A stretch of 21,449 bases of DNA from a virus. The notes beneath the pieces were generated by a model that saw only the letters and a program-made list of their open reading frames with translations, was not told the origin of the DNA and made no database searches. Position numbers and translations under genes: made by a program. Each line of letters begins with the position of its first letter. Within the stretch, counting starts at the first letter, position 1. Positions 407-20,297 of this stretch are shown piece by piece. The stretch is taken from the IMG/VR virus record IMGVR_UViG_3300034073_004691, positions 1-21,449 of that record; one strand, 5' to 3'.

Positions 407-508
407 CGGTAATCTGCTAGGTCGACCAGCGGTCTTGGATCGGTAATCTGCTACGTCGACTAGCGGTCTTGGATCGGTAATCTAGTGCGTCGACCAGCGG
501 TCTCGGAA
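407..508 (+). repeat. three tandem 34-bp repeats, promoter/operator-like
   Basis: Head-to-tail units at 407-440, 441-474 and 475-508. Each begins CGGTAATCT, contains GTCGAC (unit 1 GGTCGACC) and then AGCGGTCT. Units 1 and 2 differ at two positions; unit 3 is more diverged and its last base is the A of the next ATG. Each unit holds a copy of the GGTAnnCT element found before other genes; the last copy (TAATCT 478-483) is 24 bases from the start at 508. Each also has a small inverted repeat GACC-AGC-GGTC; in unit 2 the C-to-T change leaves a G:U pair. The 34-base period is not a multiple of three, so this is not a protein repeat. A repeated promoter or repressor/activator site is the likeliest reading. 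Confidence 0.75.
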
Positions 509-900
509 TGGCGCTAGACATCACGCTTGGATGGTCAGCGGGCGACGACTTGCGGGTACTTGTTGCTGCGGGACTTGGTGTGAGTCCTTATGGGGTGCAA
601 CAGATCCAGGTTGACATGAATTATTTGGGTGAATTTGCACCTGATGCTGTTGGAAATGTCCAGGACCTGTTGGACGAGTACGACAGTGTCCAGACTAGGA
701 TGAATGAGTTAAATTTGAGTTCAGAGTCCAGGGTATTAAAGAAGGCGGACGTGTTAGAGTGGGAGGTGAGTGACATTGGGACGACGTATGGCCCGGAAAG
801 GGAATTGATGCGTGTTAGGGACCTTTTGGCCCAATACTTTGGCTTCAGCCCACTGTTTACTGGCAATGGTGGTGTCGGTACGGCGTTGATTCGATCATGA
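508..900 (+). CDS. putative head-tail connector (adaptor) protein
   Basis: 130 aa from an ATG at the end of the third 34-bp repeat; an in-frame TAA at 478 limits the 5' end. No Shine-Dalgarno sequence is visible. The protein is largely helical and acidic in the middle (QDLLDEYDSVQTRMNEL, KADVLEWEV) and ends GGVGTALIRS. I have no diagnostic motif. The call rests on size, helix content and position as first gene of a neck cassette, ahead of a beta-rich stopper-like protein and a clear HK97 gp10-type protein. In siphoviruses the gp6/gp15-type adaptor that binds the portal sits in this place. The stop overlaps the next start as ATGA. An unrelated small virion protein is the alternative. Confidence 0.5.
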   Translation: MALDITLGWSAGDDLRVLVAAGLGVSPYGVQQIQVDMNYLGEFAPDAVGNVQDLLDEYDSVQTRMNELNLSSESRVLKKADVLEWEVSDIGTTYGPERELMRVRDLLAQYFGFSPLFTGNGGVGTALIRS

Positions 901-1088
901 ACGATTGCAACACCAGCGAGGGATTTTTCCAGCCTGTATTGCAGTCTGAGGTTGTTATGGTGATGTGTCATGGATGCGGTACTGAGCAACCGGTAAATGC
1001 GGTGTATGCGCCGTACGTGATGGATGGGATCAGTTCCTGTCGTGCGTGTCGTGAAAAGATGTATGGCAGTTCTGAAAGTGGTGGATGA
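897..1088 (+). CDS. zinc-ribbon microprotein
   Basis: 63 aa starting in the ATGA overlap with the preceding gene, which suggests coupled translation. Two CxxC pairs, C24-H-G-C27 and C48-R-A-C51, are 20 residues apart, the layout of a small treble-clef or ribbon zinc knuckle. An internal start at 957 would give a shorter protein that keeps both pairs. The rest is low in complexity and ends SSESGG. Such ribbons are common in small phage proteins that bind nucleic acid or protein, but no specific function can be assigned. Its position between neck genes may simply reflect space in the operon. Confidence 0.6.
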   Translation: MNDCNTSEGFFQPVLQSEVVMVMCHGCGTEQPVNAVYAPYVMDGISSCRACREKMYGSSESGG

Positions 1089-1094
1089 AATATG

Positions 1095-1103
1095 GGCATA
1101 ATT
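1095..1103 (+). promoter_or_regulatory. GGCATAATT -10-like element
   Basis: Member of the recurrent motif family. The hexamer CATAAT ends 27 bases before the ATG at 1130. A second AT-rich candidate, TATAAA at 1107-1112, follows directly. Confidence 0.35.
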
Positions 1104-1129
1104 TGCTATAAAAATTTTTCGGTACCGAG

Positions 1130-1639
1130 ATGACATCACCGTTATTGGACTATGCGAATGGATACTTGCTGGTGCGCCAGCAGGGGACTCCGAGTATTGT
1201 TAATGGAAGAGTGCAACAAACGGCGGGCACGACGTACTTGGTGCAGTGCTACTTAAAAAGGCAGGACAGTACGGGCACGTCCACGGGTGCTGATTATGTT
1301 CCGGTCCAAAGTCGTGGCGGTGCGGCGATTGATGGGGCCTCGGGACAGATTTATTTGTATCGAGGCTATGCACTTAGGTATGCGGCAGTGAGTTCGTCGT
1401 ATGACTTAGAGACGTTGTCACTGGCTGGCGTGACTTTTAGCTCATTTACGTTTACATCAGTGCCGGAGTGGTTGATTGCTGGCGTAAGTGGATCGCATAA
1501 GCAAGGGCGTGAAAAGGTGGCGTACTTCAGTATTGAGACGTGTGGAGGCAAGTTTGGCAATTCAGGGATTGATGAATTGATCAACAATAACATTGAAGGC
1601 ATTCCGATTGTCATTCGTAGTGGGCAGGTACTGAACTGA
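1130..1639 (+). CDS. putative head-closure (stopper) protein
   Basis: 169 aa, beta-rich, with alternating short hydrophobic strands (TYLVQCYLKRQ, IYLYRGYALRYAA, IPIVIRSGQVLN). No catalytic motif. Position between an adaptor candidate and an HK97 gp10-like protein, together with size and all-beta character, fits the head-closure or stopper proteins that seal the portal and accept the tail. This is inference from synteny. It has its own gap and promoter-like element upstream but no clear Shine-Dalgarno sequence. Its TGA overlaps the ATG of the next gene (TGATG). Confidence 0.45.
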   Translation: MTSPLLDYANGYLLVRQQGTPSIVNGRVQQTAGTTYLVQCYLKRQDSTGTSTGADYVPVQSRGGAAIDGASGQIYLYRGYALRYAAVSSSYDLETLSLAGVTFSSFTFTSVPEWLIAGVSGSHKQGREKVAYFSIETCGGKFGNSGIDELINNNIEGIPIVIRSGQVLN

Positions 1640-2136
1640 TGGCACGCAGTAAGGCAGCTTTTAACTTGTCAGATTTAAAGGCCAAATTAGACAAAAGAAT
1701 TGTTATCAAATCCCAGACGCAGACAAGTGGACTGCTTGCAGTAAATTTGACAAAGTTTCCTGCGACTGAGATAATCAATCGATTTGAAGCGGCGATTGAC
1801 CGAGCCAATAATAAGATCGCATTTGATCTAAAAAAGGCTCTTGATGATGCTATAAGAAGCGGGGTATGGCAAGGCACTGATATTTTTGAAACTGGAAGTT
1901 TGATGGAGTCAGGGACTGTAATAGTAGGGGCGAATGGGGTGACTGTTTCTTACGATGCTCCCTATGCTGCAATTGTGCATTATGGAGGATATATTAATCC
2001 TTACGGAGATGTGAACAGACGAATTTACCTGCCTCCCAGACCCTGGCTTGAATCCGTAATGCTTGGTGGGGGGCCTGTAGCGCAATTCAACTTCGTCGAC
2101 TACTACTTGAGGGAGATCGAACAAGAATTCGACTGA
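1639..2136 (+). CDS. tail-completion protein, HK97 gp10-like
   Basis: 165 aa. The N-terminal half is helical (residues about 40-75, FEAAIDRANNKIAFDLKKALDD). The C-terminal half carries the hallmark of the HK97 gp10 / neck type 1 family: VSYDAPYAAIVHYGG (residues 103-117) followed by LPPRPWLESV (131-140). In this family the protein joins the tail to the head or completes the tail end. It begins in a TGATG overlap with the previous gene, so it is probably translated by coupling. A gap with a promoter-like element follows. The family assignment is more secure than the exact step in assembly. Confidence 0.75.
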   Translation: MARSKAAFNLSDLKAKLDKRIVIKSQTQTSGLLAVNLTKFPATEIINRFEAAIDRANNKIAFDLKKALDDAIRSGVWQGTDIFETGSLMESGTVIVGANGVTVSYDAPYAAIVHYGGYINPYGDVNRRIYLPPRPWLESVMLGGGPVAQFNFVDYYLREIEQEFD

Positions 2137-2142
2137 TATACT
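2134..2142 (+). promoter_or_regulatory. extended -10 element TGATATACT
   Basis: TATACT at 2137-2142 preceded by TGA, a textbook extended -10 arrangement, ending 30 bases before the chaperone ATG. A perfect TATAAT (2148-2153) lies just downstream and could be used instead. Confidence 0.45.
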
Positions 2143-2172
2143 GGAACTATAATTGCGCTACATAAGATTAAA

Positions 2173-2781
2173 ATGGCTAAACTACCCTTTGTTGTTGAAC
2201 CGCGCCGCAAGCCGATTGTCGAAAGGATTGGCAACGAAGAGTCTGGGATTATCGAAATTGAGCGACTAGGTTACCTGACAACTGGTGAAAAAGCCTTTGT
2301 TCAGCAAGTACAACAATTTGATAATGGAACGACTGAGATTGTAACTCTCAGCAGGCGAGTAGCTCGCAAATACGGAATGGGCATGGACAAGGCTTATGGT
2401 CTTGTTATTGGAATTATGTCTGGGCAAGAATCGAATCAAACGAATGACAGAGATCTTGCAGACAAAGTAGAGGAAGAGTTTGCCGTAGAGCTGACTGAGG
2501 TAATTAAGAGCCTATCAAATGGACAAGTACGAGAGGACATGGTAATGGCAGCCTGTATGGTCAGATATCGACTTGATCCCAATTATGAAATTAGTGACAT
2601 TTCCAAACTGCATCCAGACTTGATTGCTGGACTTGCAAATCTTTACAGAGAAGAAGAGGCTAAGGTTCTTGATGCTTTTAAGCAGGAAGACGATGAGTCA
2701 AGTGAAATCACTATCGAGGAAGCCGAAAAAAAGCTCGTGACGGGGCCCAAATCCCGTTCGAAGACTTCTACTACCGATTGA
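2173..2781 (+). CDS. tail assembly chaperone, G-type (unshifted product)
   Basis: 202 aa from ATG at 2173. Mostly helical and acidic towards the end (VEEEFAVELTEVIKSL, EQ/DE-rich 160-185). Tail assembly chaperones bind the tape measure and recruit tube subunits, and many siphoviruses make a short (G) and a long frameshifted (G-T) form. The identification rests on the slippery heptamer A AAA AAG near the 3' end and the fully open -1 frame behind it. After that site the unshifted frame gives only 15 residues of S/T/K-rich sequence. The gene is separated from the tape measure by a terminator candidate, the tube and an HNH gene, whereas chaperones usually sit directly before the tape measure. Confidence 0.75.
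   Translation: MAKLPFVVEPRRKPIVERIGNEESGIIEIERLGYLTTGEKAFVQQVQQFDNGTTEIVTLSRRVARKYGMGMDKAYGLVIGIMSGQESNQTNDRDLADKVEEEFAVELTEVIKSLSNGQVREDMVMAACMVRYRLDPNYEISDISKLHPDLIAGLANLYREEEAKVLDAFKQEDDESSEITIEEAEKKLVTGPKSRSKTSTTD
2727..2757 (+). promoter_or_regulatory. programmed -1 ribosomal frameshift site
   Basis: The heptamer A AAA AAG occupies 2727-2733 in the zero frame (GAA AAA AAG) and equals the well-known dnaX-type slippery sequence. Six bases on, ACGGG (2740-2744) can pair with CCCGT (2753-2757) around an 8-base loop, a normal spacing for a stimulatory stem. The -1 frame has a stop at 2703-2705, just upstream, and is then open to 3356. Confidence 0.8.
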
Positions 2782-3356
2782 AAAGAGGATTTCCTGGCGA
2801 TCCTGAATTTTCTTTGCAGAACTATTGGAAACTGCCGTATATCTATGTTATCAAAAGCATAGAAAATCTTAACAAAATTCAAAGATATGAACTGCATAGC
2901 GCCGAAAAGCCGATTGCTTATCTAGCATTTCAGAATGCGGAATTAAATAGAGACAAGAAAAAAAGAAGACAGCCATTCAAGCCAGAAGAATTTTACTATT
3001 ATGCTGACCTTGAGGCTATGGATTTACCAGAGCCTAGATTTGGCGCAGCAGCCATGGAGCTAATCAGGCTTGAGATGTTTCCAAATTGGGCACTATTTGC
3101 CTATCCAGAATTAAAGAAGCGGGCAATGAATGCTATTGCGCCAGAGTTGTTATGTTACCAGTGCCAAGATGCAATCATTTTAGCGCCAAATATCGAAGGT
3201 GCGATGGTCCAAGGCATGCTTATAGCTGGTAAGACTGCCTCAAACGAAAGACGAGAAATGATCTCTCCATGTAGTCGGACCATAACGGTGCTCATGCCAA
3301 CAATCTTGGGTGAATTTGAGGCAATAGAGGAATCAGAGATCAGGATTGTTGGCTAG
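2733..3356 (+). CDS. tail assembly chaperone, T domain (expressed by -1 shift)
   Basis: Read from 2733 after the slip, the frame adds 207 residues to the first 187 of the G protein, giving a 394-aa G-T fusion. The junction reads ARDGAQIPFEDFYYRLKR, with an aromatic, structured look quite unlike the S/T/K tail of the unshifted frame. The only independent start is a TTG at 2778 that overlaps the G stop and has no Shine-Dalgarno sequence, so the fusion is more plausible. The body is helical with aromatic residues (EEFYYYADLEAMDL, FPNWALFAYPELKKRA). The last 24 bases overlap the convergent HNH gene. By analogy with lambda G-T, the T part should bridge to tail tube subunits. Confidence 0.7.
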   Translation, partial: ARDGAQIPFEDFYYRLKRGFPGDPEFSLQNYWKLPYIYVIKSIENLNKIQRYELHSAEKPIAYLAFQNAELNRDKKKRRQPFKPEEFYYYADLEAMDLPEPRFGAAAMELIRLEMFPNWALFAYPELKKRAMNAIAPELLCYQCQDAIILAPNIEGAMVQGMLIAGKTASNERREMISPCSRTITVLMPTILGEFEAIEESEIRIVG

Positions 3357-3746
3357 CCAGGACAATTCGTCTTCGTCTGGAACCCTTCCATATTTTAGCC
3401 AAAATTCTATGCGAATTTCTCTTGTTTGATCATAGAAATCTTGCTGTCTAAACCAGGGCCTCCAATCCTCGGATCCCTTGGCTTGATTATGCTCTAGACA
3501 GGCGGGCAAGCAATTGGTGCTGACATCTTCGCCCCCTTTACTGCGAGGTTTGAGGTGGTCAATGGTTAGTGACTTGTCACTGATCGGTGGCTGACCGCAA
3601 AAGCAACAACAGTTGCCCCATGCATCCTTTATCGCTTTTCGCCACCGCCTTTTGGCATCTCCACTTTTTAAGCATTCCATGGCCCATAGATAATGATGGT
3701 ACGACAAAGCAATCCCTGGTTGGGATGACACTTTGAGATCGGTCAT
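3333..3746 (-). CDS. HNH endonuclease (free-standing, zinc-finger type)
   Basis: 137 aa on the minus strand from ATG at 3746. Core: C47-x-x-C50-G, then L60-T-I-D63-H64, N78, and C83-L-E-H86-N87-Q-A-K-G, the ordered residues of a beta-beta-alpha-metal HNH nuclease with a structural zinc site. D63-H64, N78 and H86-N87 look complete, so it should be active. The C-terminal part (WRPWFRQQDFYD, RIEFWLKYGR) is a DNA-binding tail I associate with cyanophage HNH proteins. It lies against the structural genes, its 3' end overlaps the T-domain gene by 24 bases, and it separates the chaperones from the rest of the tail genes. Likely a mobile homing-type nuclease; a role in packaging is less likely since packaging HNH genes usually sit beside terminase. 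Confidence 0.88.
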   Translation of the reverse strand: MTDLKVSSQPGIALSYHHYLWAMECLKSGDAKRRWRKAIKDAWGNCCCFCGQPPISDKSLTIDHLKPRSKGGEDVSTNCLPACLEHNQAKGSEDWRPWFRQQDFYDQTREIRIEFWLKYGRVPDEDELSWLANNPDL

Positions 3747-3853
3747 GGATCAGTTGCTGATGTCGACTGTTTTATCCGAGAACAGGTAATTCATGACCAA
3801 TGTTCCGGGCATAATGTTGATTCGACTCACGCTAGAATGCCGTGTAATGGTAT

Positions 3854-3862
3854 GGCAAACTA
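3854..3862 (+). promoter_or_regulatory. GGCAAACTA -10-like element
   Basis: TGGCAAACTAAGG with the hexamer CAAACT at 3856-3861, 27 bases before the ATG at 3889. The same nine bases recur before the gene at 15010 (14979-14987). A second family-like site, GGCATAATG, lies at 3808-3816. Confidence 0.45.
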
Positions 3863-3888
3863 AGGCTTGATGGGTTACGGACTTTTGC

Positions 3889-4320
3889 ATGCCACAACAG
3901 CACGCGACTAGCCCTCAGGTTATTTATGATAAGTTGGCGGGTGATGCCACCTTCATGGCGCTGGTTGGCACGAGAAAGTTTGAGACCGGCGACATGGTAC
4001 TGAATGCGATTTCCATCGTAAGTCCTGGAGAAAAGCTGCCGACGCTTAAGTCAATCAGCGGCCTTGAGGTTGTAATTCATGATGTGGCCAACTTTGGTCG
4101 CAGGTCGTATCTTACCGGTGACGATGATATCACGACTAGTTGGAGGGTGTATTTGATGGCGTGGCCCCCGGCAAATGGTGGAACGCTTACTGCCGCTGCC
4201 ACTAGGATGATGCAATTGTTTAGTGGTGCTACAACTATTGATACCGCAGCGACGCCAGAAGGCCTTGGAATTATCGCGCAATTGCTTGTCCTGATTCCGT
4301 CTGATTCTGTAATTATTTAG
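3889..4320 (+). CDS. putative tail terminator protein
   Basis: 143 aa, alpha/beta, with SPQVIYDKLAGDATFMALVG at the N-terminus, a central LEVVIHD strand, and WRVYLMAWPPANGG followed by a helix (LTAAATRMMQLFSG). The pattern of an N-terminal helix, a DNA-independent beta sheet with W-x-V-Y-L and a C-terminal helix, and the place directly before the tube gene, fit the lambda U / SPP1 gp17 group that caps the tail tube. Assignment is by position and general fold only. It is a single-gene unit: an HNH gene and intergenic DNA precede it, and an 86-base structured gap follows. Confidence 0.5.
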   Translation: MPQQHATSPQVIYDKLAGDATFMALVGTRKFETGDMVLNAISIVSPGEKLPTLKSISGLEVVIHDVANFGRRSYLTGDDDITTSWRVYLMAWPPANGGTLTAAATRMMQLFSGATTIDTAATPEGLGIIAQLLVLIPSDSVII

Positions 4321-4406
4321 TGCATTAATCATTTGGTAGCCTAAAAATAAGCAGGTAGGCGCCTGCCCCTATTTGTCTTGCTTTTTAGCAATCCCTACCT
4401 GAGACC
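4321..4406 (+). promoter_or_regulatory. structured leader of the tail tube gene
   Basis: Three hairpins can be drawn. A: GCAGG 4351-4355 with CCTGC 4362-4366, extendable by AAATA/TATTT outside. B: TTGCT 4378-4382 with AGCAA 4387-4391, loop TTTT. C: CAGGTAGG 4352-4359 with CCTACCTG 4394-4401, which would enclose B and excludes A. Hairpin A followed by a T-rich stretch could end the upstream transcript, while C reaches to five bases before the ATG. GGTAGCCTA at 4335-4343 is a weak member of the promoter-like family. Confidence 0.45.
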
Positions 4407-5255: not shown

Positions 5256-5303
5256 GTCCTTCGGACTTTTGTGAATAAAAGGCCCCTATTCAGGGGCTTT
5301 TTT
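5255..5303 (+). terminator. tandem Rho-independent terminator after tail tube gene
   Basis: A short hairpin AGTCC-TTC-GGACT (5255-5267) followed by three T overlaps the stop codon. A strong one follows: GCCCCT (5282-5287), loop ATTC, AGGGGC (5292-5297), then six T (5298-5303), with flanking A/T pairs extending the stem. Confidence 0.85.
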
Positions 5304-5318
5304 ATTGACTTTTTGACC

Positions 5319-5327
5319 GGAAGACTA
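5319..5327 (+). promoter_or_regulatory. GGAAGACTA element before tape measure
   Basis: Weaker match to the recurrent motif (GGAAGACTAG against GGCAAACTAG). Hexamer 5321-5326 ends 26 bases before the GTG start, the usual spacing. It follows the terminator, so a new transcript must begin about here. Confidence 0.35.
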
Positions 5328-5352
5328 GAGGGCGCTAAGAAGTTGTTAGTCA

Positions 5353-8300: not shown

Positions 8301-11238
8301 GCTTGCTAGTCAATACTTTGGAGTTGTGGCAAATGTAAGCACAGATAGATTGCGCGAACTTGGTAAAGAAATTTCTAATTTGCAAAATAGACGTAAAGCC
8401 TTGCTTGAGCAGCAAGCAGGGAGGGATGTGCTGGATCCAGAAGCCGCTCAAAGGACTGCTTCTGAAATTAAAAATCTCGACGAAAACATTCTTAGGCTTA
8501 CTAGCACTCAGGAGAGCCTTGGGAAGACAGCAAGAGAAGCACAGATTCAGCAGTTGCAATTAGCTGACTCAGCGGATGCGTTTACAAGGAGCGCGTCCAG
8601 TGGTGACAAGAGAGCTAAGTTGCTGAGTGGATCTATCACTGGCCTTGGGGCAGGAATTTCTAAAACCTTTTCTGGACTAAAGAATTTCGCTAAGGGTATT
8701 CTGGAAGAGCTCGGACCATTGCAAATTGCGTTGATTGCTATATCTGTTGCTCAAAGAGCATACAGTGATGCAACGGCTACTAGTCAGATTGAGTTAGATA
8801 AAAATGCGGAGTCTGCAAAAATTTTAACAGAAAGAAATAAAGAGCTAGCAGAAGCTGTTAAGTTGGTTGGCCAAGAGATTTCAGGAACCGATGTTGCTCC
8901 ACCTCTTAGATTGCAGGAGTTATCCGGAGCGGAAGTTGCCTGGAGGGGACTTGGGAATGCAGTCGCCGACTCATGGGCACAAATCACAGGTGCATCCAAG
9001 ACTGGAGGTGCGCAAACAAGCCAGTCGATCAGACAACTTATTAGCGATATTGAAGAGGCAAAAGCCAGTGGGCGAGGATTTAAGTCGCCATTTCAGCTTA
9101 TATTTGAGCAGGGTTTTGGTTCTGCGGATCTTAAAAGAAATCAAGAATTGCAAAGTAGCCTAGAATCGGCGAGAATTCAGATCATTGAGTTTGCCAGGGC
9201 TGGAACAGCCGCAGCGCGTGGTATTGCTTCCGATTCCGGGGTGATAGATGATCAGATAACAACACTGCGTGAATTTGCAAAAATTTCCAACGTTTCTGCA
9301 GAGGGTCAGAGCAGATTCTCGAGTGAATTCGCCAAGACCTCGTCTAGCATTGGAGAGCAAGAGAAGCGACTTCAGACACTAACAAATCAATTAGAGCAAT
9401 TCGAAGCTCTGGCAGCGACTGGTGTACTTGGACCTGAATTTGAAAACAGACTAAAAAGCCTTCGATCCGAGGTGTCGAGAACCGAAATAAAGCTTAATCA
9501 GTCCAGAGAGGCGATGCTTCGACTAGGACTGGATACAGGGGAGCTTGGCAGGCAATTTGCAAATGCTACGTCTTCTGTCGACGGAATGAACGAAGCGCTC
9601 AAGGGTCTTCAACAGGGATTAAATGCGGCGGCAGTTGGGTCAAGAGAGTTCGAAACCTTTGCCGGTCGTGTGGCGGCCCTGGCCGGGCAGATTGAGTACG
9701 CCCAAAAATTGTCAAAAGATCCAATCTTTTTACAGACTGCTCTTCCAGCAGCCTACTCAAACAGGCTCGCCGAAGTCACTAGACTTGAGGAAGAAAGGGC
9801 AAGACTTTTGAGCGATCCTCAAAGATCGGCGAAAGCCGAGGCAGCAAATCTGGAACAACTTGCGAAAGTAAGAGGAGAACTAGAGTCAATTCGCAAAGAG
9901 CAAATTGAGAATACGATTAGATTGAAAGTTGATAAAGTTGCTTTCGAAGGAGAATTGCTAAAAATTAAAAGTGAAATATCGCAAAGCGCTATACTACTTC
10001 GCACTTCAATCGATCAACCGCGCTTGAGGGAAGTACTTTCTCAATTCGAGACAATTAGATCCAGGATTAATCAGCTCAACAATGAAAGGGAGCAAGTAGC
10101 GATAAAATTGCAGAATCCAAATATCGCTCCATCAGAAAGATTGGGATTGCAGCAAGAGGACGTTAGGATCTCTGAGCAGATCAGAGCAACAATTGCTGCC
10201 GGGGCTGCGTCTCTTAGGGACAGTGCCATGACACTTCGAAAGGCAGCGCAAGATGCTGCCACGCGACTCCAAGAGGCAAAGCAGTCATTGTTGAATTTGA
10301 AGCTTTCAAATCTAGATTTTTTGCCACCTGAGCAAAGAATAGCTGCAATCAACGAGCTAAATAATAAAGTACAGCAAATAGCAGAAAGTCGAGGACTGAA
10401 AGTTGTATTCCAGGGAACTGACGAAGAGATTTTGGCGGCAAAACAACGCTTTGTAGATTTTTATACTCAATTAGAGGCCGGCGAAAAACAGATTGCAGAA
10501 CTTAAAAAAGAAATCAATGATATCAACAATGCGATACAGGCAATTCAAGAAAGTGGAGTTCCGGAAACCTTTGGGGCGATAGCCGGAAACGCATACGAGA
10601 CAGCAGTATCGATGAAAGATGCTGCAATAAATCTTGACGCCGCTGGCATTTCAGCCAACAAATTTTACGATGCTTTAGACAATGGTCTTGATACGGTAAA
10701 TAAATTAAGTGATGCGATTGCACAGCTAGATGGTCTAACGGCCAATGTGACAATCACATCCTCTTCTGCGCCTGCGGCTCGCTGGTCGGGTGGACCGGTC
10801 AGCGCCGGATCGACATACACGGTTAACGAGCTTGGCAAAGAAGGGTTTTTATCGGCTTCTGGAAGGATCAGTGAGATCTCCAGGCCAAGAAATTCAACAT
10901 GGCGAGCCCCTTCGTCTGGCACTGTAATTCCTGCAAATATTTGGTCGCAGATTGATTTGCCTTCTAGCCGTGTCCAGGCTTCCTCTAGTCCCGCTGGGCT
11001 TTATGCGATCAAGGATCCGATCCAAAGACTTGCAAGATTGATTCGGGGCTCTAATCAACAGAGCAATACTTCGAGTGGAATTACGGAATTGGCTGCGGTT
11101 CAAGCCAATCAGGCACTACAGATCGGAAAACTAGGCCGCGCAGTAGACGACCTGGCTTCCAAGGACTGGAACGTCAATGTTCGAGTCAGGAATACAGGTA
11201 GCGCCGCGTACCTGGAAGCACTGAACCATAGACTGTAA
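5353..11238 (+). CDS. tail tape measure protein
   Basis: 1961 aa from a GTG at 5353. By the usual ruler relation (about 0.15 nm per residue) the tail would be near 290 nm. Residues about 205-350 carry the conserved tape-measure N-terminal domain: KGKLQAEELTQQISEADPAF, then AIGVTTKELERMVKAGDIT. Hydrophobic segments at about 443-490 (VFLAVTEGVLAVINVL) and 1120-1136 (LQIALIAISVAQ) may insert in the host membrane at injection. Long charged coiled-coil stretches fill the rest. The C-terminus (from about 1810, GGPVSAGSTYTVNELGKEGF) is the typical G-G-P-V / E-G-F closing motif. I see no lysozyme or peptidase domain. TAATG overlap links it to the next gene. Confidence 0.93.
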   Translation: MAKGTPALELEAVITAKQLNKALDDLRSGVEGTAREINNALGGTVRKTLVLETREDGNGAKKLVAVEKERLSITDKIIKAQQKAAKVEGGSATSLRQQVNQAKQARDELVRYQGAAGSLFGTIKRINPEWSAQNKRVSELSRQLAIAEASGFWEKAKIGLRAQGIVSFSNGLVQITQGLQAASIVVGQFTAGINNVVNTAAELQQFGLTFKAIGEGVSGGLSALQSARGIALGLGVNLSTVEESFRQLSPVVLNAGGTIQDVSEITEALSSRFAAFGISGDRARRVTNGVIQAFAKGKLQAEELTQQISEADPAFKTDLAGAIGVTTKELERMVKAGDITSEKLIEIIPQLSKSSLLFGKLGPSANSAVDALSEGSVTIDQVRANLQNLNQISLRNLAKAAEPVINAFFRIQAVVADFFSRISKSASVDTLANLFAKLAESAARILDVFLAVTEGVLAVINVLSPLINAVANIPGIFELAGLAILSKFIKPLNELDRNTANTVQKQQGFISRLGRLWPQAESPVKGAINAVKELNKQLQKPIQFNITKELETTANQIKKQTQNSANSVSSTVSTATSGIKNVVTSAQKGINDLNKQVLTAQSRNKNIELAPVLKTVVSSSVPRELNGASTAFLLAAKYLDQFSASTSGAIRITSDFAKRVGAASLLTARQLQGVTEGISFRPIDPKFLEDVKELSKTNPGAAMALLQASMRKLQEESRKTSDSFRGLDVATQNAFKAKTIESADQLKVIFKEIAASSGQLNSGQVKSLEQALSGQQQSIRNEIAQTRKETKGLVAELEKTPKDNQAKASIRSQGIIRQELSKTQKKLQDLYASEAKIQQERISSRRQAAGFDPSDFSSEASLYLDTLKKIKSEEKIASDSRIQELQSSTTKAKAELDSLANKQKKVSADLQAFRLPRMEAVTTEFDINKAEALREVIKSNNEELGSRLNLIRQDVAYSTDLNNILARGASQYSTTAQKVRALALASQYFGVVANVSTDRLRELGKEISNLQNRRKALLEQQAGRDVLDPEAAQRTASEIKNLDENILRLTSTQESLGKTAREAQIQQLQLADSADAFTRSASSGDKRAKLLSGSITGLGAGISKTFSGLKNFAKGILEELGPLQIALIAISVAQRAYSDATATSQIELDKNAESAKILTERNKELAEAVKLVGQEISGTDVAPPLRLQELSGAEVAWRGLGNAVADSWAQITGASKTGGAQTSQSIRQLISDIEEAKASGRGFKSPFQLIFEQGFGSADLKRNQELQSSLESARIQIIEFARAGTAAARGIASDSGVIDDQITTLREFAKISNVSAEGQSRFSSEFAKTSSSIGEQEKRLQTLTNQLEQFEALAATGVLGPEFENRLKSLRSEVSRTEIKLNQSREAMLRLGLDTGELGRQFANATSSVDGMNEALKGLQQGLNAAAVGSREFETFAGRVAALAGQIEYAQKLSKDPIFLQTALPAAYSNRLAEVTRLEEERARLLSDPQRSAKAEAANLEQLAKVRGELESIRKEQIENTIRLKVDKVAFEGELLKIKSEISQSAILLRTSIDQPRLREVLSQFETIRSRINQLNNEREQVAIKLQNPNIAPSERLGLQQEDVRISEQIRATIAAGAASLRDSAMTLRKAAQDAATRLQEAKQSLLNLKLSNLDFLPPEQRIAAINELNNKVQQIAESRGLKVVFQGTDEEILAAKQRFVDFYTQLEAGEKQIAELKKEINDINNAIQAIQESGVPETFGAIAGNAYETAVSMKDAAINLDAAGISANKFYDALDNGLDTVNKLSDAIAQLDGLTANVTITSSSAPAARWSGGPVSAGSTYTVNELGKEGFLSASGRISEISRPRNSTWRAPSSGTVIPANIWSQIDLPSSRVQASSSPAGLYAIKDPIQRLARLIRGSNQQSNTSSGITELAAVQANQALQIGKLGRAVDDLASKDWNVNVRVRNTGSAAYLEALNHRL

Positions 11239-14945: not shown

Positions 14946-14978
14946 CATAATTTGTTCGGTAATTTTGATCGCGCTGTT

Positions 14979-14987
14979 GGCAAACTA
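14979..14987 (+). promoter_or_regulatory. GGCAAACTA -10-like element
   Basis: TTGGCAAACTAGG: hexamer CAAACT 14981-14986, 23 bases before the GTG at 15010. Identical over nine bases to the site at 3854-3862. A second family-like site (AGCATAATT) follows the hub stop. Confidence 0.45.
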
Positions 14988-15009
14988 GGTGCAAAAGAGC
15001 GCATGATCC

Positions 15010-15441: not shown

Positions 15442-15442
15442 T

Positions 15443-15850
15443 ATGGCTATCACCACAACTATTAGCCAAAAGGAGCTCGAGCGAGTTGCGGCGTTAGTCT
15501 ATGAGGGAGAAACATTGAAGGTGATGCTGTGCAATGTAGCATCAACTGGTTACACAGCTCAAAGTACTGTCGCCAATTGGCAGTCAGCGGAATTAGCTAG
15601 CGCCAATGGCTATGTCCGGTATTCAGAAGTAATCGCAACTGGTTCATACAGCGCGGTCAATGGAAGATATGAATTGCCTTCGATTGATGCCGAGTTCACG
15701 GCGTCAGGTGTCGGCTATAGCTATGATCGGGTAGTTTTGTATATCGATGGCGCCACTTATCCACATAGCATCCTGGCTGAATCTCCCAATATCGTCCTGT
15801 CTCCGGGGCAGACTCAAACCTATAGACTGAATTTGAACACCGACGACTGA
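15443..15850 (+). CDS. small virion appendage protein, copy 2
   Basis: 135 aa from ATG at 15443; a TTG at 15434 would add three residues but overlaps the previous stop, and MAIT at the ATG mirrors the neighbour. Layout parallels copy 1: LKVMLCNVASTGYTAQ, NGYVRYSEVIATGSY, DAEFTASGVGYSYDRVVLYI, then PNIVLSPGQTQTYRL. The shared order suggests an ancient duplication although identity is low. GRYELPSIDAEF and VVLYID are strongly patterned beta strands. Likely a structural partner of copy 1 in the tail tip. Only one TGA and four bases separate it from the 533-aa gene, so the three are one operon. Confidence 0.55.
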   Translation: MAITTTISQKELERVAALVYEGETLKVMLCNVASTGYTAQSTVANWQSAELASANGYVRYSEVIATGSYSAVNGRYELPSIDAEFTASGVGYSYDRVVLYIDGATYPHSILAESPNIVLSPGQTQTYRLNLNTDD

Positions 15851-15854
15851 CGGC

Positions 15855-17456
15855 ATGGATGTCAATATTAATGTTGATGCCAGAATCGGAGCATTGCTGA
15901 ATAAAAGCCGCCAAACGACACAGGTTAATCGACAAGCGGCTCAAGAAAGCAGTAGCAAAAAAAAAGTTGAGGCCCAAGCCTCTCAGAAGCGTCAGGAAAA
16001 ATTGCGGTCCGAAGGCAGAGACGCAAGCGGGAGTCAAGCGAATCGTCCCGCAGCACTTCAAAGCTTTCAAAAGCAAAAGCCGGCGGCCTACAGACCAGTT
16101 GAATCTTTATTTGTAAATGGAATTGGTATCCAGGAATTTTTTCCTATTGGAAATGCAAATGGTCAGCAAAACAGATTGAGAATATCTGTGCCTAGCAACA
16201 ATGCTATTGTATTCGATGCGGGATATATCCCGTACTCCTCTGATCAATTAAATGGCCCAACTGCGTACTGGTTTACCGATAGTTCAGTCGCCGGTTACAC
16301 GAGTTTTTGTAATGGAACTTCCAGCTTCTGGAGCTTGACACCATGGCCAAATCTAACGGTAGTTTCCAGCCCACCAACATCTCAAACGTATTATACTATT
16401 TATATTAGAGAGCTTTATTTCTATAGCTCCTCGCCGGAAAACGAAAGCATGTCAGTGCTTTTGCCAGTTAATAGCGGAAAGGCTGTATATTGTTTTCATC
16501 GCATGGTATTAAGCCTGTGGAACCATCACTTCTTTGTTGTTCAGCAAGTGAACACCTGGAATCCATCTACCGGGTTTACTACTGGTCCGGCAGAGTTGGC
16601 CCAGCAATCAACCGAATCAATGGAGCCCCAGATCGAAAGGACCAGTTTCTGCTGCTTAGTTGGCGTGAACACAGCAAAACCAACGCAACAAAGCTTAAAG
16701 GCGGAATCAGACGTCATGGAAATTGAGGTTCCAGGCCAACTAGAACAAGCCTTCCAAAGACTGATCCCAGCACCTAATTTAAACGTAGTAAATCAAACCA
16801 TAAATCTTGGTAATTTGATGACAGCAAGTTACCAGGACAAGGTTTTTACCTATTCATCCACAAATGACTCTGCTGCCGTAAATACCGCATTTGAGTACTC
16901 TGATCCAACCATTCTGATCTCGTATGGTCAATATTATGACTGGGGCAATAGATCGTATTCATTTGCCTCTATTGATGAGCCGATTCGCGGATCATTTACT
17001 CCAGCGATATACACGCTATTACTGGATTATCAAAACGGGCTCGACAGCTCTGATCCGGCAAGTCGAGACTATTCGGATGTAGCTTCCGAGTATGATCTGC
17101 CACAGGTAAAATTTGTCTATACTTATGTAGATTTCTCCGAAACTCAGGATCCCGAGACCGGGAACTCTGTAATATCAATTGTCAGCGAACCAATGAAAGG
17201 TATGCCAGAAAGCACTGATTCTGATATTACAGAGCTTTTATACGCCAATCCAAAATATAAAGTCGTTGAGCTGCAAGAGCCACAAGAATTCGATGTATAC
17301 CCGGTTGAATCCGAGGAAATTGGACCAGGATCATATGGAGCATCCTTTTTCCAGGTAATGCCATGGGTGAGCTGGGGTTCTCAAGACTATCGCAATCAAA
17401 AACTACAAGCACTGGGATTTAATCCATCAAGCTTAAGCTTCCCAGCTATGCCGTAA
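15855..17456 (+). CDS. 533-aa putative tail-tip virion protein
   Basis: The N-terminus (about 10-75) is very polar, with K/R/Q/S runs (SSSKKKVEAQASQKRQEKLR) and probably a disordered or coiled linker. The rest is a large beta-rich body with many aromatic residues (YYTIYIRELYFYSSS, ILISYGQYYDWGNRSYSF, GSYGASFFQVMPWVSWG), as in virion surface proteins. I do not recognise a family. Position after the small appendage genes and before the scaffold points to a tail-tip or fibre-associated structural protein. Codon use is like the tape measure, not like the capsid gene, so it is probably a low-copy component. Confidence 0.5.
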   Translation: MDVNINVDARIGALLNKSRQTTQVNRQAAQESSSKKKVEAQASQKRQEKLRSEGRDASGSQANRPAALQSFQKQKPAAYRPVESLFVNGIGIQEFFPIGNANGQQNRLRISVPSNNAIVFDAGYIPYSSDQLNGPTAYWFTDSSVAGYTSFCNGTSSFWSLTPWPNLTVVSSPPTSQTYYTIYIRELYFYSSSPENESMSVLLPVNSGKAVYCFHRMVLSLWNHHFFVVQQVNTWNPSTGFTTGPAELAQQSTESMEPQIERTSFCCLVGVNTAKPTQQSLKAESDVMEIEVPGQLEQAFQRLIPAPNLNVVNQTINLGNLMTASYQDKVFTYSSTNDSAAVNTAFEYSDPTILISYGQYYDWGNRSYSFASIDEPIRGSFTPAIYTLLLDYQNGLDSSDPASRDYSDVASEYDLPQVKFVYTYVDFSETQDPETGNSVISIVSEPMKGMPESTDSDITELLYANPKYKVVELQEPQEFDVYPVESEEIGPGSYGASFFQVMPWVSWGSQDYRNQKLQALGFNPSSLSFPAMP

Positions 17457-17480
17457 GAATGCCAGCATCTTCGCAGTGGA

Positions 17481-17489
17481 GGAATCCTG
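17481..17489 (+). promoter_or_regulatory. GGAATCCTG element
   Basis: Weak member of the recurrent motif, similar to GGTATCCTG at 20251. Hexamer AATCCT ends 22 bases before the ATG at 17511. TACAAT (17493-17498) is an alternative -10. Confidence 0.25.
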
Positions 17490-17510
17490 TATTACAATTA
17501 TCGCAAAACA

Positions 17511-17642
17511 ATGGCTGACAGTTCCACAAATGATCTATCATCGCTCTTGGAGCGAGCAAAAATACAAATTAATTTAGGTAGGTACTACTTCCTCAGACAG
17601 GCATCAGACAAGAAGCTCATCGATAAAATCGTTAACAAATAA
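17511..17642 (+). CDS. 43-aa hypothetical protein
   Basis: ATG at 17511 to TAA at 17642. The product is a compact helical protein: DLSSLLERAKIQINLGRYYF then LRQASDKKLIDKIVNK, basic towards the end. It lies alone in the gap between the last tail gene and the scaffold, with promoter-like elements on both sides. Its amphipathic helix pattern (LLERAKIQINL) and complete start-to-stop reading argue for a real gene, but it is short and has no clear Shine-Dalgarno sequence. No family recognised. Confidence 0.45.
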   Translation: MADSSTNDLSSLLERAKIQINLGRYYFLRQASDKKLIDKIVNK

Positions 17643-17647
17643 AAATA

Positions 17648-17656
17648 GGCATACTA
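17648..17656 (+). promoter_or_regulatory. GGCATACTA -10-like element before scaffold
   Basis: Clear match to the recurrent motif (hexamer CATACT 17650-17655), 37 bases before the ATG at 17693. Between it and the ATG is a hairpin GAGGCG-AGA-CGCCTC (17669-17683) that ends nine bases before the start codon and could modulate initiation. Confidence 0.45.
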
Positions 17657-17692
17657 CTGCGCAATTTCGAGGCGAGACGCCTCATTCGTTAC

Positions 17693-18439
17693 ATGCCTGA
17701 CAACCAAGCATCGGCATCCGAGATGGACGCCAATCAACAAGGTGACAGCCAGCAAATGGATGATCAGCTCAATAGCAATGGTGATCTGATCCCAAAGGCC
17801 GAGGTCGACAACCTGCTCAAGGCCCTGAAGGCGGAGCGGGAGTCACGCAAGGCCTACGAGAAGGAAGTGCGTGAAAAGTCGGCGCAACTTGAGAAGTTTG
17901 CGGAGATTAACCCGAACGAGTACCGTCGCCTCCAGGAAGAGGCTGCAATTGCCGAGCGCGAGCGTTTGGCCGCCGAAGAGCGGACCTCCCTACTGGAGGA
18001 AAAGTACGGCTCACAGGCCGCCGAGGCCAACAAAAAGGCTGAACAGTACCAGGTCGAGCTCAAAGAGTTCCGCAAGCGCTACGCCCTGGAGAAGGTCTTC
18101 TTCGCTGCCGGTGGACGTCCTGACGCTGCCGACGGTGTGTCCTTTTTTGACATGCTGGCCGATCGCCTTGGTAGCAGCTTCCGGTTGGAGCCAAATGGCG
18201 CAATTACTGTCATTGATTCGAACGGCGATCCCGTCCTTGACGCTGACACCGGCAAGCGCATTGCGCCCGAGGAGTACCTGGGTGGCTTTAAAAATCACCC
18301 AATTTATGGCACGTTCTTCCGGGGTGCTAAGGGCTCTGGTGCTGGCGTCGGCTTCGGCGGCACCGATGCAAGCGGCATGCCGACCGAGGACCTGTCCAGC
18401 CTGAGTGCTGATGCGCTATTCGAGCGGGCGTTTGGTTGA
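17693..18439 (+). CDS. capsid scaffolding protein
   Basis: 248 aa. Polar D/N/Q/S N-terminus, then a long charged coiled coil (about residues 35-130: LLKALKAERESRKAYEKEV, LQEEAAIAERERLAAEER, ELKEFRKRYALEKVFFAAGG). The C-terminal third is globular, with ITVIDSNGDPVLDADTG, EEYLGGFKNHPIYG and a Gly-rich linker, ending LSADALFERAFG. Coiled coil plus C-terminal capsid-binding helix directly before the capsid gene is the usual form of phage scaffolds, which template procapsid assembly. Codon use is rich in C/G endings like the capsid gene. No protease motif is seen. The stop codon overlaps a palindrome and a terminator follows. Confidence 0.82.
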   Translation: MPDNQASASEMDANQQGDSQQMDDQLNSNGDLIPKAEVDNLLKALKAERESRKAYEKEVREKSAQLEKFAEINPNEYRRLQEEAAIAERERLAAEERTSLLEEKYGSQAAEANKKAEQYQVELKEFRKRYALEKVFFAAGGRPDAADGVSFFDMLADRLGSSFRLEPNGAITVIDSNGDPVLDADTGKRIAPEEYLGGFKNHPIYGTFFRGAKGSGAGVGFGGTDASGMPTEDLSSLSADALFERAFG

Positions 18440-18473
18440 TTCGCTATTCGCGAATAACGAATGCATCATGATG
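18439..18473 (+). repeat. palindromes after scaffold gene
   Basis: 18439-18462 is a 24-base palindrome with one mismatched pair (ATTCGCTATTCG against CGAATAACGAAT), centred on CGCG. 18464-18473 is a perfect palindrome, CATCATGATG. They lie between the stop codon and the terminator stem and could be a protein-binding site or an extra RNA hairpin. Confidence 0.6.
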
Positions 18474-18496
18474 AGGCTTCGGCCTCATTTTTTTTA
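18471..18496 (+). terminator. Rho-independent terminator after scaffold
   Basis: ATGAGGC (18471-18477), TTCG tetraloop, GCCTCAT (18482-18488), then a run of T. Confidence 0.85.
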
Positions 18497-18673
18497 CCAA
18501 AATACAGTTATATCGGGTTAAATATTGTCCATTAGGTATACTAGGGAGAAAAGATACCCTAAGTACCGCAGTCGAGAAGACAAGGTTCCAGGGTGTCGAG
18601 TCGAATTACTGCGTGATGCAAGTGTCGGCAAAATCACCCATCTTTCTTTGTCCCTTTTTCCTGAGGTATCACA
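18497..18673 (+). promoter_or_regulatory. long leader of the capsid gene
   Basis: GGTATACTA (18535-18543), the best motif match, lies 131 bases before the ATG, so the mRNA should have an unusually long 5' leader. Around it TAGGTAT and ATACCCTA form an imperfect inverted repeat. CGCAGT (18567-18572) can pair with ACTGCG (18608-18613), extended inside by CGA/TCG. A pyrimidine-rich tract precedes GAGGT (18663-18667), a good Shine-Dalgarno sequence six bases from the ATG and the only strong one in the window. No convincing ORF is seen in the leader. Confidence 0.6.
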
Positions 18674-19585
18674 ATGGGCCTTAGTCTCGTTGAAGCCAAG
18701 AAGCATAGCCGCAATCCCCAAGAGCTGGCTGTCATTACCGAGCTCGCCGCCGGTCCCCTGCTGAGCACCCTGCCTTTCCGCGAAGTCCAAGGCTCTGGCC
18801 TGTTCTGGAAGCGTGAAGAGTCGCTGGGCGACGTGGGTTTCCGTGCCTACAACGATAGCTATGATGAGAGCTATGGCGAGGTGCGCCAGTACAGCGAAGC
18901 CCTGAAGCTGTTCGGTGGCGACATCAAGGTTGACCGCGCCATCGTCGATCTCGAGGGTGCCCAAGCTCGTGCCTTCCAGGTTCAGTCGAAGGTTCGTGCA
19001 ATGCGTCTCGCCTTCGAAGGCCTGTTCTTCAATGGCGATTCCAACAGCACCGCTGCCGAGTTCGACGGTCTGAGCCTACGTCTGCCCGCTGCCCAGGCCG
19101 GTACCCACTCCCAGATCATCGCTAACGCCGGTTCGGCCGCTGCCCTGGATCTGAACAAGCTCGATGAAGCCATCGACGCTGTTGACGCCCAAGGCGGTCA
19201 GAAGTACCTGCTGATGTCGAAGTCGGCTCGTCGTCACCTGAGTGCCGTGGCTCGCGCCAGCAACCAGGTCGACATCATGCGCTCCGAGTTCGGTGGTCAG
19301 CAACTGGTGTACGGCGGCCTGCCCGTGCTGGAAGTTGACCGCGACCATAAGAACGTCAAGATCCTGGACAGCAACGCTGCCGACCAGTCGATCTATGTCG
19401 TGTCCTTCGGCAATGATCATCTGACCGGCATCCAGAACGGCGGTCCTCAGGTCCGTGACCTGGGAGAAGCCACTGATTCGCCGACCCTGGTGACCCGCGT
19501 GGAATGGTACTGCGGTGTGGCGATGATCAATGGCCGCAGCGCTGCTCGCCTGACCAAAGTCAACGCGAACGCCACCCCTGCCTGA
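18674..19585 (+). CDS. major capsid protein, HK97 fold
   Basis: 303 aa. N-terminal region PLLSTLPFREVQGSGLFWKRE, then VGFRAYNDSYDESYG, LFGGDIKVDRAIVD, the FFNGD motif at about 118-122 with FDGLSLRL just after, YLLMSKSARRHLSAVAR, VYGGLPVLEVDRD, and C-terminal IYVVSFGNDHL and VRDLGEATDSPTLVTRVEW. This series is typical of HK97-fold capsid proteins without a long delta domain; the scaffold is a separate gene. It forms the icosahedral shell. Strong codon bias to GGC, GCC, CTG and CGT, a strong Shine-Dalgarno sequence, its own promoter-like element and a strong terminator all indicate very high expression as a single-gene unit. Being downstream of the tail genes is unusual. Confidence 0.9.
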   Translation: MGLSLVEAKKHSRNPQELAVITELAAGPLLSTLPFREVQGSGLFWKREESLGDVGFRAYNDSYDESYGEVRQYSEALKLFGGDIKVDRAIVDLEGAQARAFQVQSKVRAMRLAFEGLFFNGDSNSTAAEFDGLSLRLPAAQAGTHSQIIANAGSAAALDLNKLDEAIDAVDAQGGQKYLLMSKSARRHLSAVARASNQVDIMRSEFGGQQLVYGGLPVLEVDRDHKNVKILDSNAADQSIYVVSFGNDHLTGIQNGGPQVRDLGEATDSPTLVTRVEWYCGVAMINGRSAARLTKVNANATPA

Positions 19586-19591
19586 TGAAAA

Positions 19592-19638
19592 TCCAGTCCA
19601 CGACTGGAATTACAAGGGGCTTCGGCCCCTTCTTTTTT
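19592..19638 (+). terminator. Rho-independent terminator after capsid gene
   Basis: A first hairpin TCCAGTC-CAC-GACTGGA (19592-19608) is followed by AAGGGGC (19614-19620), TTCG loop, GCCCCTT (19625-19631) and a C then six T (19633-19638). Confidence 0.88.
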
Positions 19639-19665
19639 GTCTGCAATGGCTATCTCGAGTGGTCC

Positions 19666-19674
19666 GGTATACTA
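19666..19674 (+). promoter_or_regulatory. GGTATACTA -10-like element
   Basis: Identical over nine bases to the capsid element at 18535-18543. Hexamer TATACT 19668-19673 ends 26 bases before ATG 19700, which favours that start over 19646 for the HNH gene. Confidence 0.45.
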
Positions 19675-19699
19675 CGCTAGATGCACTGAGCTCCAATCA

Positions 19700-20236
19700 A
19701 TGAAGTTGCCGATAGCCTTGCCGCACATCAGCGTCCTGCAAGAAGCCTTTGAGCTTGATCCCTCCATACCGCATGGACTGCGCTGGAAGGTCAGGGCCGC
19801 CAGGAATACGATTGTTGGGGACCCGGCCGGCAGAAAGCATCAAAATGGCTACTGGGAAGTAAGGCTAAATAAAGTATTGTTTAAAACTTCAAGAATTGTG
19901 TACAAGATGTATAACAATGGAGAAGATCCTGGCTGGCACGAGATTGACCATATAGATCGCAACAAGGATAATAATGATGGTCAAAATTTGATTTTGGCAA
20001 CCAGGGCCGAGCAGAACTGTAACAAAGCCCCGATCAGTGCCAGCGGTTTTCGCAATGTCACTCACGATAGGCGAGATTCCAAGCGAAGAGCTCCATGGAT
20101 CGCAGCAGTAAAAAGCAAAGGATTTGGCAAATTTCTTGGATACTACAAAAGTCCTTACGAAGCGGCGATCGCCGCCATTGCTTACAAAAGGGAAATGGGT
20201 TTGCGATACGAATATGCCCCCGCAGGAACGATGTAG
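19700..20236 (+). CDS. HNH endonuclease with AP2-like DNA-binding domain
   Basis: 178 aa from ATG 19700. An ATG at 19646 (196 aa) or TTG 19637 is possible, but they start inside or next to the terminator and upstream of the promoter-like element. N-terminal HISVLQEAFELDPSIPHGLRW and AGRKHQNGYWEVRLNKVLF are the NUMOD-like strands before the nuclease. HNH core: W79-H-E-I-D83-H84-I-D-R-N88-K-D-N91-N92. C-terminal residues about 114-172 (SGFRNVTHDRR, PWIAAVKSKG, FLGYYKSPYEAAIAAIAYK) match the AP2/ERF-like fold found in homing endonucleases. Free-standing between capsid and fibre genes, probably a mobile nuclease. Key residues look intact. Confidence 0.88.
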   Translation: MKLPIALPHISVLQEAFELDPSIPHGLRWKVRAARNTIVGDPAGRKHQNGYWEVRLNKVLFKTSRIVYKMYNNGEDPGWHEIDHIDRNKDNNDGQNLILATRAEQNCNKAPISASGFRNVTHDRRDSKRRAPWIAAVKSKGFGKFLGYYKSPYEAAIAAIAYKREMGLRYEYAPAGTM

Positions 20237-20250
20237 GTTCGTTTGTACAT

Positions 20251-20259
20251 GGTATCCTG
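20251..20259 (+). promoter_or_regulatory. GGTATCCTG element before fibre gene
   Basis: TGGTATCCTG: hexamer TATCCT 20253-20258, 39 bases before the ATG at 20298. An AGGA lies at 20269-20272 but is too far from the start to act as a normal Shine-Dalgarno sequence. Confidence 0.35.
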
Positions 20260-20297
20260 TTATCACACAGGAAAACTAGCAGGTATAGCCGGCCAGC

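Follow-up and report, generated by a model that had tools for sequence, protein, structure and literature searches.

The late promoters of phage T4, of which there are about 50, consist only of a −10 element located one helical turn upstream of the transcription start, with no −35 element, and are read on the host core polymerase by gp55, a sigma-family protein equivalent to domain 2, with gp33 and the gp45 clamp (PMC2988020). In cyanobacteria, the group 3 sigma factor SigF recognises type 3 promoters such as those of Synechocystis pilA1 and sigF, which carry GGTAA at −12 and TAGGC at −32, and it controls its own gene (PMC2758279). For Prochlorococcus phage P-SS2, the published description reports group 2 and group 3 sigma factors, the latter proposed to read a specific regulon, and its promoter predictions are limited to the sigma-70 type (BPROM), alongside rho-independent terminators (PMC2784084). 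Cyanosiphoviruses infect abundant marine phototrophs, and the literature found does not include a worked-out account of their transcriptional control.

The window, meaning the whole stretch of 21,449 nucleotides analysed here, is a fragment carrying structural genes of a cyanosiphovirus, whose relatives are Synechococcus phages S-CBS2 and S-CRES1-3 and, at a greater distance, P-SS2. A larger assembly was searched for, but the genome record of this virus is the window itself, and its own sigma factor genes are therefore not visible; they are presumably present, as in relatives with 85% identical capsid proteins. In the original prediction, made by eye, a recurrent GGYAWACTA element was said to precede nearly every gene that has an upstream gap.

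When 257 upstream regions from S-CBS2, S-CRES1, S-CRES3 and P-SS2 were searched by unseeded de novo EM, with the window left out, the motif tnGGaAtaCTAg was returned in 45% of the regions with a log-likelihood ratio of 289. The same EM on three shuffled sets, the control proposed with the original prediction, gave ratios of 30-40. The element can be written t-w-GG-m-A-t-m-C-T-A-g. A scoring matrix trained without the window and without its 11 closest relatives found nine intergenic plus-strand sites of at least 9 bits in the window, whereas 500 dinucleotide shuffles gave 0.24 on average and never more than 4. Two further sites found with it are a conserved one within the tape-measure gene and one on the minus strand that faces an HNH gene. 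The sites and associated features, with matrix scores and the fraction of orthologs that have a site, are as follows.

476..484, plus strand: putative promoter element GGTAATCTA before gene 508 (11.2 bits; orthologs 4/4)
1095..1103, plus strand: degenerate element GGCATAATT before gene 1130, of doubtful function (1.1 bits; good site 19-22 nt upstream in 3/4 orthologs)
2143..2151, plus strand: weak putative promoter element GGAACTATA before gene 2173 (6.2 bits; good site at 19-28 nt in 5/6 orthologs)
3833..3841, minus strand: putative promoter element GGCATTCTA facing the minus-strand HNH gene 3333-3746 (13.1 bits; HNH orthologs 2/3)
3854..3862, plus strand: putative promoter element GGCAAACTA before gene 3889 (10.3 bits; orthologs 6/6)
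4335..4343, plus strand: putative promoter element GGTAGCCTA before tail protein gene 4407, 63 nt to the start codon (9.1 bits; orthologs 3/3 at 57-77 nt)
5319..5327, plus strand: putative promoter element GGAAGACTA before tape-measure gene 5353 (13.0 bits; ortholog 1/1), with a terminator-like hairpin just upstream (5277-5302)
11125..11133, plus strand: putative promoter element GGAAAACTA within the tape-measure gene and 104 nt ahead of gene 11238 (16.3 bits)
14979..14987, plus strand: putative promoter element GGCAAACTA before gene 15010 (13.3 bits; orthologs 17/17)
17648..17656, plus strand: putative promoter element GGCATACTA before scaffolding gene 17693 (15.7 bits; orthologs 34/34)
17693..18439, plus strand: scaffolding protein gene (phrog_206, E 5.6e-25), a late gene that would be served by the 17648 site
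18535..18543, plus strand: putative promoter element GGTATACTA upstream of the leader RNA and of the major capsid gene (16.8 bits; 31/50 orthologs reach 9 bits)
18544..18673, plus strand: 5′ RNA leader preceding the major capsid gene, with a structure supported by covariation
18674..19585, plus strand: major capsid protein gene (phrog_212, E 5.2e-68; 67% identity to S-CBS2)
19666..19674, plus strand: putative promoter element GGTATACTA before an HNH gene (12.4 bits; 25 nt to ATG 19700)
20270..20278, plus strand: putative promoter element GGAAAACTA before gene 20298 (14.0 bits; orthologs 23/24)

The recurrent element is real, and eight of the positions picked by eye (476, 3854, 4335, 5319, 14979, 17648, 18535 and 19666) score between 9.1 and 16.8 bits. 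Several others were misplaced. Positions 408 (−1.1 bits), 442 (−0.2 bits) and 17481 (2.9 bits) find no support, nor does 1095 as written, which looks like a decayed copy. Position 2134/2135 scores −5.7 bits and gene 2173 appears to be served instead by the weak 2143 site, while 20251 (1.5 bits) gives way to 20270 as the site for gene 20298. The sites at 11125 (+) and 3841 (−) had been overlooked. The former recurs in 7/15 orthologs, six times at 104-107 nt, and S-CRES1 and S-CRES3 have divergent element pairs in the same place as 3841(−)/3854(+). Capsid-gene sites are weaker in one clade, and the 19666 site is not conserved among 4 orthologs. Its location indicates that the HNH gene starts at ATG 19700 and not at TTG 19637, an example of how the element can correct gene starts.

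Exact copies of GGYAWACTA number five in the window (3854, 14979, 17648, 18535 and 19666), all on the plus strand and all intergenic. Equal frequency of the motif inside genes would have spoken against the original prediction. Among the 86 related loci covered, of which many are near-identical, 102 copies are intergenic and on the plus strand versus 10 intragenic on the plus strand, with 5 on the minus strand, although only 10% of the bases in those loci are intergenic. Promoter-proximal matches of at least 10 bits number 76 in the four phages plus the window, and four control phages (195 kb) have none. The element is concentrated in structural and packaging modules.

The element had been described as missing from genes with abutting or overlapping starts. 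Across relatives this holds for 897 (site in 0/1 orthologs), 1639 (0/2) and 11985 (1/14), and likewise for 2778 (0/7), but not for 11238 (7/15) or 15443 (5/19); a reversed-sequence control for these ortholog counts gave low values. EM on the genes without the element recovered only ribosome-binding-site-like (AAGGAG) and terminator-like patterns, and so yielded no early or middle class of promoters.

A logo was built from 288 sites. It shows GG at −14/−13, in agreement with the G at −14 noticed originally, followed by a −10-like hexamer. The view that no −35 box is shared was also borne out, as every column between 50 and 12 nt upstream of the motif stays at or below 0.04 bits in these sites. 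The distance from motif to ATG peaks at 19 nt, most sites lying 19-25 nt before start codons, and purines occupy the two expected start positions at 81% and 71%. Terminator-like hairpins are found upstream of the 18535 element and, at 19614-19631, of the 19666 element. In nearly all loci a GG-A---TA-like element directly precedes the conserved capsid leader RNA, which is found once per genome, solely ahead of the capsid gene, and had no match in an Rfam search. This leader, starting at one of the putative promoters, is a separate new target.

These elements are very likely extended −10, late-type promoters, as originally proposed together with a possible phage factor. That interpretation fits every test run, namely de novo discovery, positional conservation across orthologs, gene orientation, start spacing, the lack of a −35 box, module concentration, the control phages and the operon of the SigF-like factor described below. 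Promoter activity and late timing are suggested by position and gene function. It is reasonably likely that the element defines a phage-specific promoter class that drives structural and packaging operons and is read by the host core polymerase carrying a phage SigF-like factor. The element would form the promoter core, transcription would begin on a purine 6-7 nt past the hexamer, and most first cistrons would receive a leader of about 14-20 nt. The operons driven would be of late type, and the reader would be the host core RNA polymerase with a group 3, SigF-like sigma factor encoded by the phage itself.

Two sigma-70-family factors are encoded by S-CBS2, S-CRES1 and S-CRES3 and, by annotation, by P-SS2. 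In S-CBS2 the SigF-like factor is gp077 and the other, RpoD-like one is gp061. The best family match of the SigF-like factor is PRK07408 (cyanobacterial SigF), with a score below the curated cutoff for that family. Sigma70_r2 (region 2) was matched in 24/24 members, and Pfam region 4 in 1/24, weakly. In an AlphaFold model the protein ends in poorly conserved C-terminal helices, and the C-terminal part predicted alone is of low confidence (pLDDT 50). A structural aligner can superpose these helices on region 4, and loss of −35 recognition is for this reason only putative. The gene adjoins terL, and in 31 of 64 SigF loci outside the training set the gene that precedes terL and sigF has the element 19-25 nt upstream. 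Given this position beside terL, often in an element-headed operon, late expression would reinforce itself. The element is probably read by the SigF-like factor.

An attempt to tell the two sigma factors apart by co-occurrence failed, as both are present in every relative above about 61 kb and their distribution cannot indicate which one reads the motif. The same late promoters might instead be read by the second factor, which is RpoD-like (group 2 type), and one 60.8-kb record in which it is present and the SigF-like factor was not found adds to its presence in all the larger relatives. Its gene lies beside ssb in the replication module, so this factor would be made before the late genes, and region 2 is found in all 14 aligned members. 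However, members from the clade nearest the window still have a recognisable region 4, which would predict a −35 box where none is seen, and GG at −14/−13 resembles the −10 elements of SigB/SigF type (GGTAA, GGGTAT; PMC2758279). The element that often heads the operon of the sigF gene also counts against it, and the RpoD-like factor is an unlikely reader.

The phage would need no factor of its own if these were ordinary host SigA promoters, since the picocyanobacterial −10 (TAnnnT) is loose and often lacks a −35. The −35 is not needed in some marine cyanobacteria, and the hexamer retains A and T at the equivalents of −11 and −7. Yet the −12 position is A in 54%, C in 31% and T in 15% of the 288 sites (G was excluded by the seed pattern), so that 85% have A or C in place of the T of a standard SigA −10, whereas the GG and the C, the latter unforced and at 86%, are strongly conserved. 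A TTGACA-like −35 box 16-18 nt upstream of the −10, a trait of standard SigA promoters, was not found in these sites. Plain TAnnnT and TATAAT show no clear intergenic enrichment when the coding strand is compared with the other strand, and a canonical sigma-70 scan of the window gave 24 sites against 24.2 expected, no excess over shuffles. Start-proximal copies of the element are missing from P-SSP7 and S-CBS4, which infect related hosts. Host SigA promoters are accordingly improbable.

A role other than promoter, as an intergenic RNA or DNA signal (a processing site, ribosome-binding aid or repressor operator), is the most improbable reading. A translational role is conceivable from the tight spacing to the start codon (peak at 19 nt) and the lack of Shine-Dalgarno excess over shuffles in first cistrons. 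Against this, the element still lies upstream of capsid and tail genes at 57-130 nt, bordering the conserved capsid leader on its 5′ side, follows terminator-like hairpins, matches gene orientation in its minus-strand and divergent copies, has a purine at the expected start position, and is asymmetric, with no operator-like palindrome.

No description of the motif was found in the literature searched; an earlier one may exist elsewhere, the original S-CBS2 genome paper included. With a late-promoter consensus in hand, what the group 3 sigma factor reads in P-SS2 and related phages becomes a matter of one in vitro experiment, and operon maps can be drawn for many uncultured phages.

Host core polymerase with the SigF-like factor remains the preferred reader, and the promoter class can be set beside the systems described at the outset. 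P-SS2 belongs to the same virus group, and the element was found before its late genes in the present analysis, although the passages of PMC2784084 consulted do not name it. Compared with cyanobacterial SigF promoters, GGTAA is close to the GGyAa seen here, sharing the GG and the next A while the third and fifth bases vary, and the phage operon arrangement suggests the same self-control. However, no conserved column corresponds to the −32 TAGGC in the 288 sites, and region 4 is at most weakly recognisable in the phage protein. The T4 late promoters are alike in having a −10 element only, no −35 and late genes downstream, late here being judged from gene function. They differ in their 8-bp TATA box, which is absent from GG-m-A-t-m-C-T-A (tnGGaAtaCTAg), and in using gp55, where the candidate factor here resembles cyanobacterial SigF. 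The promoter class here may be a second instance, independent of T4, of −10-only late promoters in phages. Whether a captured SigF-type cyanobacterial sigma factor, stripped of −35 recognition, runs the whole late regulon from GG-extended −10-only promoters, along with its own synthesis through a terS-terL-sigF operon, is evenly balanced; if so, it would be a gp55-like solution reached from a different sigma lineage.

The gene order in the window is head-tail connector protein, tail protein, tape measure (1,961 residues), tail-tip proteins, scaffold and major capsid protein. The last of these shares 67% identity with its counterpart in Synechococcus phage S-CBS2 and 50% with that of Prochlorococcus phage P-SS2, and also resembles those of S-CRES1-3. 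Eighty related contigs and annotated stretches of S-CBS2, S-CRES1, S-CRES3 and P-SS2 were used for comparison. Genes for site counts were called with a simple home-made caller that matches the S-CBS2 annotation in most genes.

The original prediction was of a recurrent GGYAWACTA element, a putative late promoter core, before genes with an upstream gap. The exact 9-mer occurs five times in the window, each time in an intergenic region and on the coding strand. A position matrix was trained on 229 non-redundant sites from relatives; to avoid circularity, neither the window itself nor the 11 relatives closest to it contributed sites. The matrix identified 9 intergenic plus-strand sites in the window scoring at least 9 bits, whereas 500 dinucleotide shuffles of the window's intergenic stretches averaged 0.24 and never exceeded 4. 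Motif discovery also recovered the element from the isolate phages, with unseeded EM on 257 upstream regions of the four genomes giving tnGGaAtaCTAg, the same motif as the matrix, in 45% of the regions (LLR 289 versus 30-40 in three shuffled sets). S-CBS2, S-CRES1, S-CRES3, P-SS2 and the window together contain 76 start-proximal matches of at least 10 bits, and none was found in phiCbK, S-CBS4, P-SSP7 and Microcystis phage Mwe-JY26 (195 kb). The S-CBS2 sites are concentrated in the structural half of the genome.

The anatomy of the element was derived from 288 non-redundant sites, where some positions are forced by the search pattern. Unforced positions are strongly biased, with C before TA in 86% and A or C preceding that in 89%, and the two bases 5′ of GG are AT-rich. 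Purines occupy the two positions 6-7 nt past the hexamer, the predicted transcription start, in 81% and 71%. As originally proposed, there is no common -35 box, every column 50 to 12 nt upstream being at or below 0.04 bits. Spacing from element to start codon has a sharp maximum at 19 nt, and the majority of sites fall between 18 and 24 nt. First cistrons behind the element in the four phages and the window have very short leaders, and their Shine-Dalgarno matches are not above shuffles, unlike operonic genes, which show a clear excess.

Matrix scores upheld the sites at 476, 3854, 4335, 5319, 14979, 17648, 18535 and 19666, but those at 408, 442, 1095, 2134, 17481 and 20251 were wrong or weak as first given. 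A well-supported site at 20270 was added to the good sites, and three had been overlooked:

2143, plus strand: weak, yet at a conserved place
11125, plus strand: within the tape-measure gene
3841, minus strand: faces an HNH gene

With these corrections, 9 of the 11 plus-strand genes with an upstream gap have a good site, and the remaining two have weak sites at the orthologous position. Terminator-like hairpins lie upstream of 5319, 18535 and 19666. Before gene 508 (genes are named by start position), a 34-nt unit, TCGGTAATCTgctaGGTCGACCAGCGGTCTTGGA, is repeated three times in tandem (404-507), and only the last copy includes the full element. A divergent pair of elements (3833-3862) separates the minus-strand HNH gene from gene 3889, and S-CRES1 and S-CRES3 have such a pair in the same place. 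Translation of the HNH gene at 19637-20236 probably starts at ATG 19700; the upstream TTG 19637 would place the predicted promoter within the gene.

Conservation was assessed by counting orthologs with a site of at least 9 bits in the upstream region.

Orthologs with a site
Scaffold gene: 34 of 34
Gene 15010: 17 of 17
Gene 20298: 23 of 24
Gene 3889: 6 of 6
Gene 508: 4 of 4
Gene 4407: 3 of 3
Gene 2173: 5 of 6
Gene 1130: 3 of 4
Capsid gene: 31 of 50

Reversed-sequence controls gave 8 matches in total, and the HNH site at 19666 was not conserved in 4 orthologs. Genes that abut or overlap a neighbour had been noted to lack the element. This holds for four of them (0/1, 0/2, 0/7 and 1/14 orthologs) but not for 15443 (5/19) or 11238 (7/15). 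For 11238, six of the seven sites share a distance of 104-107 nt, in favour of a genuine promoter inside the upstream gene.

A 130-nt leader (18544-18673) begins directly after the 18535 element, an arrangement that also indicates the predicted transcript start, and is conserved across 49 non-redundant sequences. Compensatory changes support two hairpins with GNGAN pentaloops in it. Counted across the entire structure, 96.7% of cells are paired, and both sides have changed in 97 cells versus 33 in shuffles. The ACCC/GGGU helix enclosing the first hairpin is nearly invariant, and GGGUG can alternatively pair with a conserved CACCC just 5′ of the start region, which suggests a switch. The leader, possibly a capsid-expression switch or a protein-binding site, is present in single copy before the capsid gene only. 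Two control phages whose capsids belong to the same family lack it, and it matches no Rfam family and is so far undescribed. A second long leader, of 63 nt with a hairpin, precedes tail protein gene 4407 (4335-4406) and is 57-77 nt in orthologs.

Two sigma-70-family factors are encoded by each of S-CBS2, S-CRES1 and S-CRES3, and by P-SS2 according to its annotation: an RpoD-like factor near ssb, and a SigF-like factor, the candidate reader of the element, adjoining terL. Both occur in every relative above ~61 kb and in several shorter ones, including two records with capsid proteins 85% identical to that of the window. The element lies 19-25 nt before the gene that occupies the place of terS in the terS-terL-sigF operon in 31 of 64 SigF loci, many of them near-identical and none used in matrix training. 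Regions 2 and 3 of the SigF-like factor are conserved; Pfam detects region 2 in all 24 members and, weakly, region 4 in one of them. In the AlphaFold model the sigma-2 domain is clear (VIA-align Z 11.1, 74 residues, 2.3 A) and the C-terminal helices are ambiguous. In the nearest relatives of the window, the RpoD-like factor retains a recognisable region 4. A gene annotated as an SPT5-like elongation factor is found near the RpoD-like sigma gene in S-CRES1 and S-CRES3, and its product, which in S-CRES3 has no match in Pfam or NCBIfam, is possibly an accessory factor of late transcription.

Sequence alone establishes the motif with its statistics, orientation, spacing, conservation and module bias, and the existence of the sigma genes; that the element acts as a promoter, that it works late, which factor reads it and that -35 recognition has been lost are inferences. 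No prior description of the element was found in the literature searched. Cyanobacterial SigF promoters have a -32 TAGGC and a -12 GGTAA (PMC2758279); the phage element shares the GG of the -12 box but lacks the -32 box, a pattern that could be explained by a factor no longer dependent on upstream sequence. T4 late promoters likewise consist of a -10 without a -35, and are read by gp55, which is related to sigma domain 2 (PMC2988020). The mode of working would be alike, but the sequence and sigma lineage differ, and the element is therefore not classed as a T4-type promoter. For P-SS2, a group 3 sigma was proposed to read a specific regulon, and the only promoters predicted in that study were of the sigma-70 type (PMC2784084). 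The element is found before P-SS2 late genes, and is a natural candidate for the mark of that regulon.
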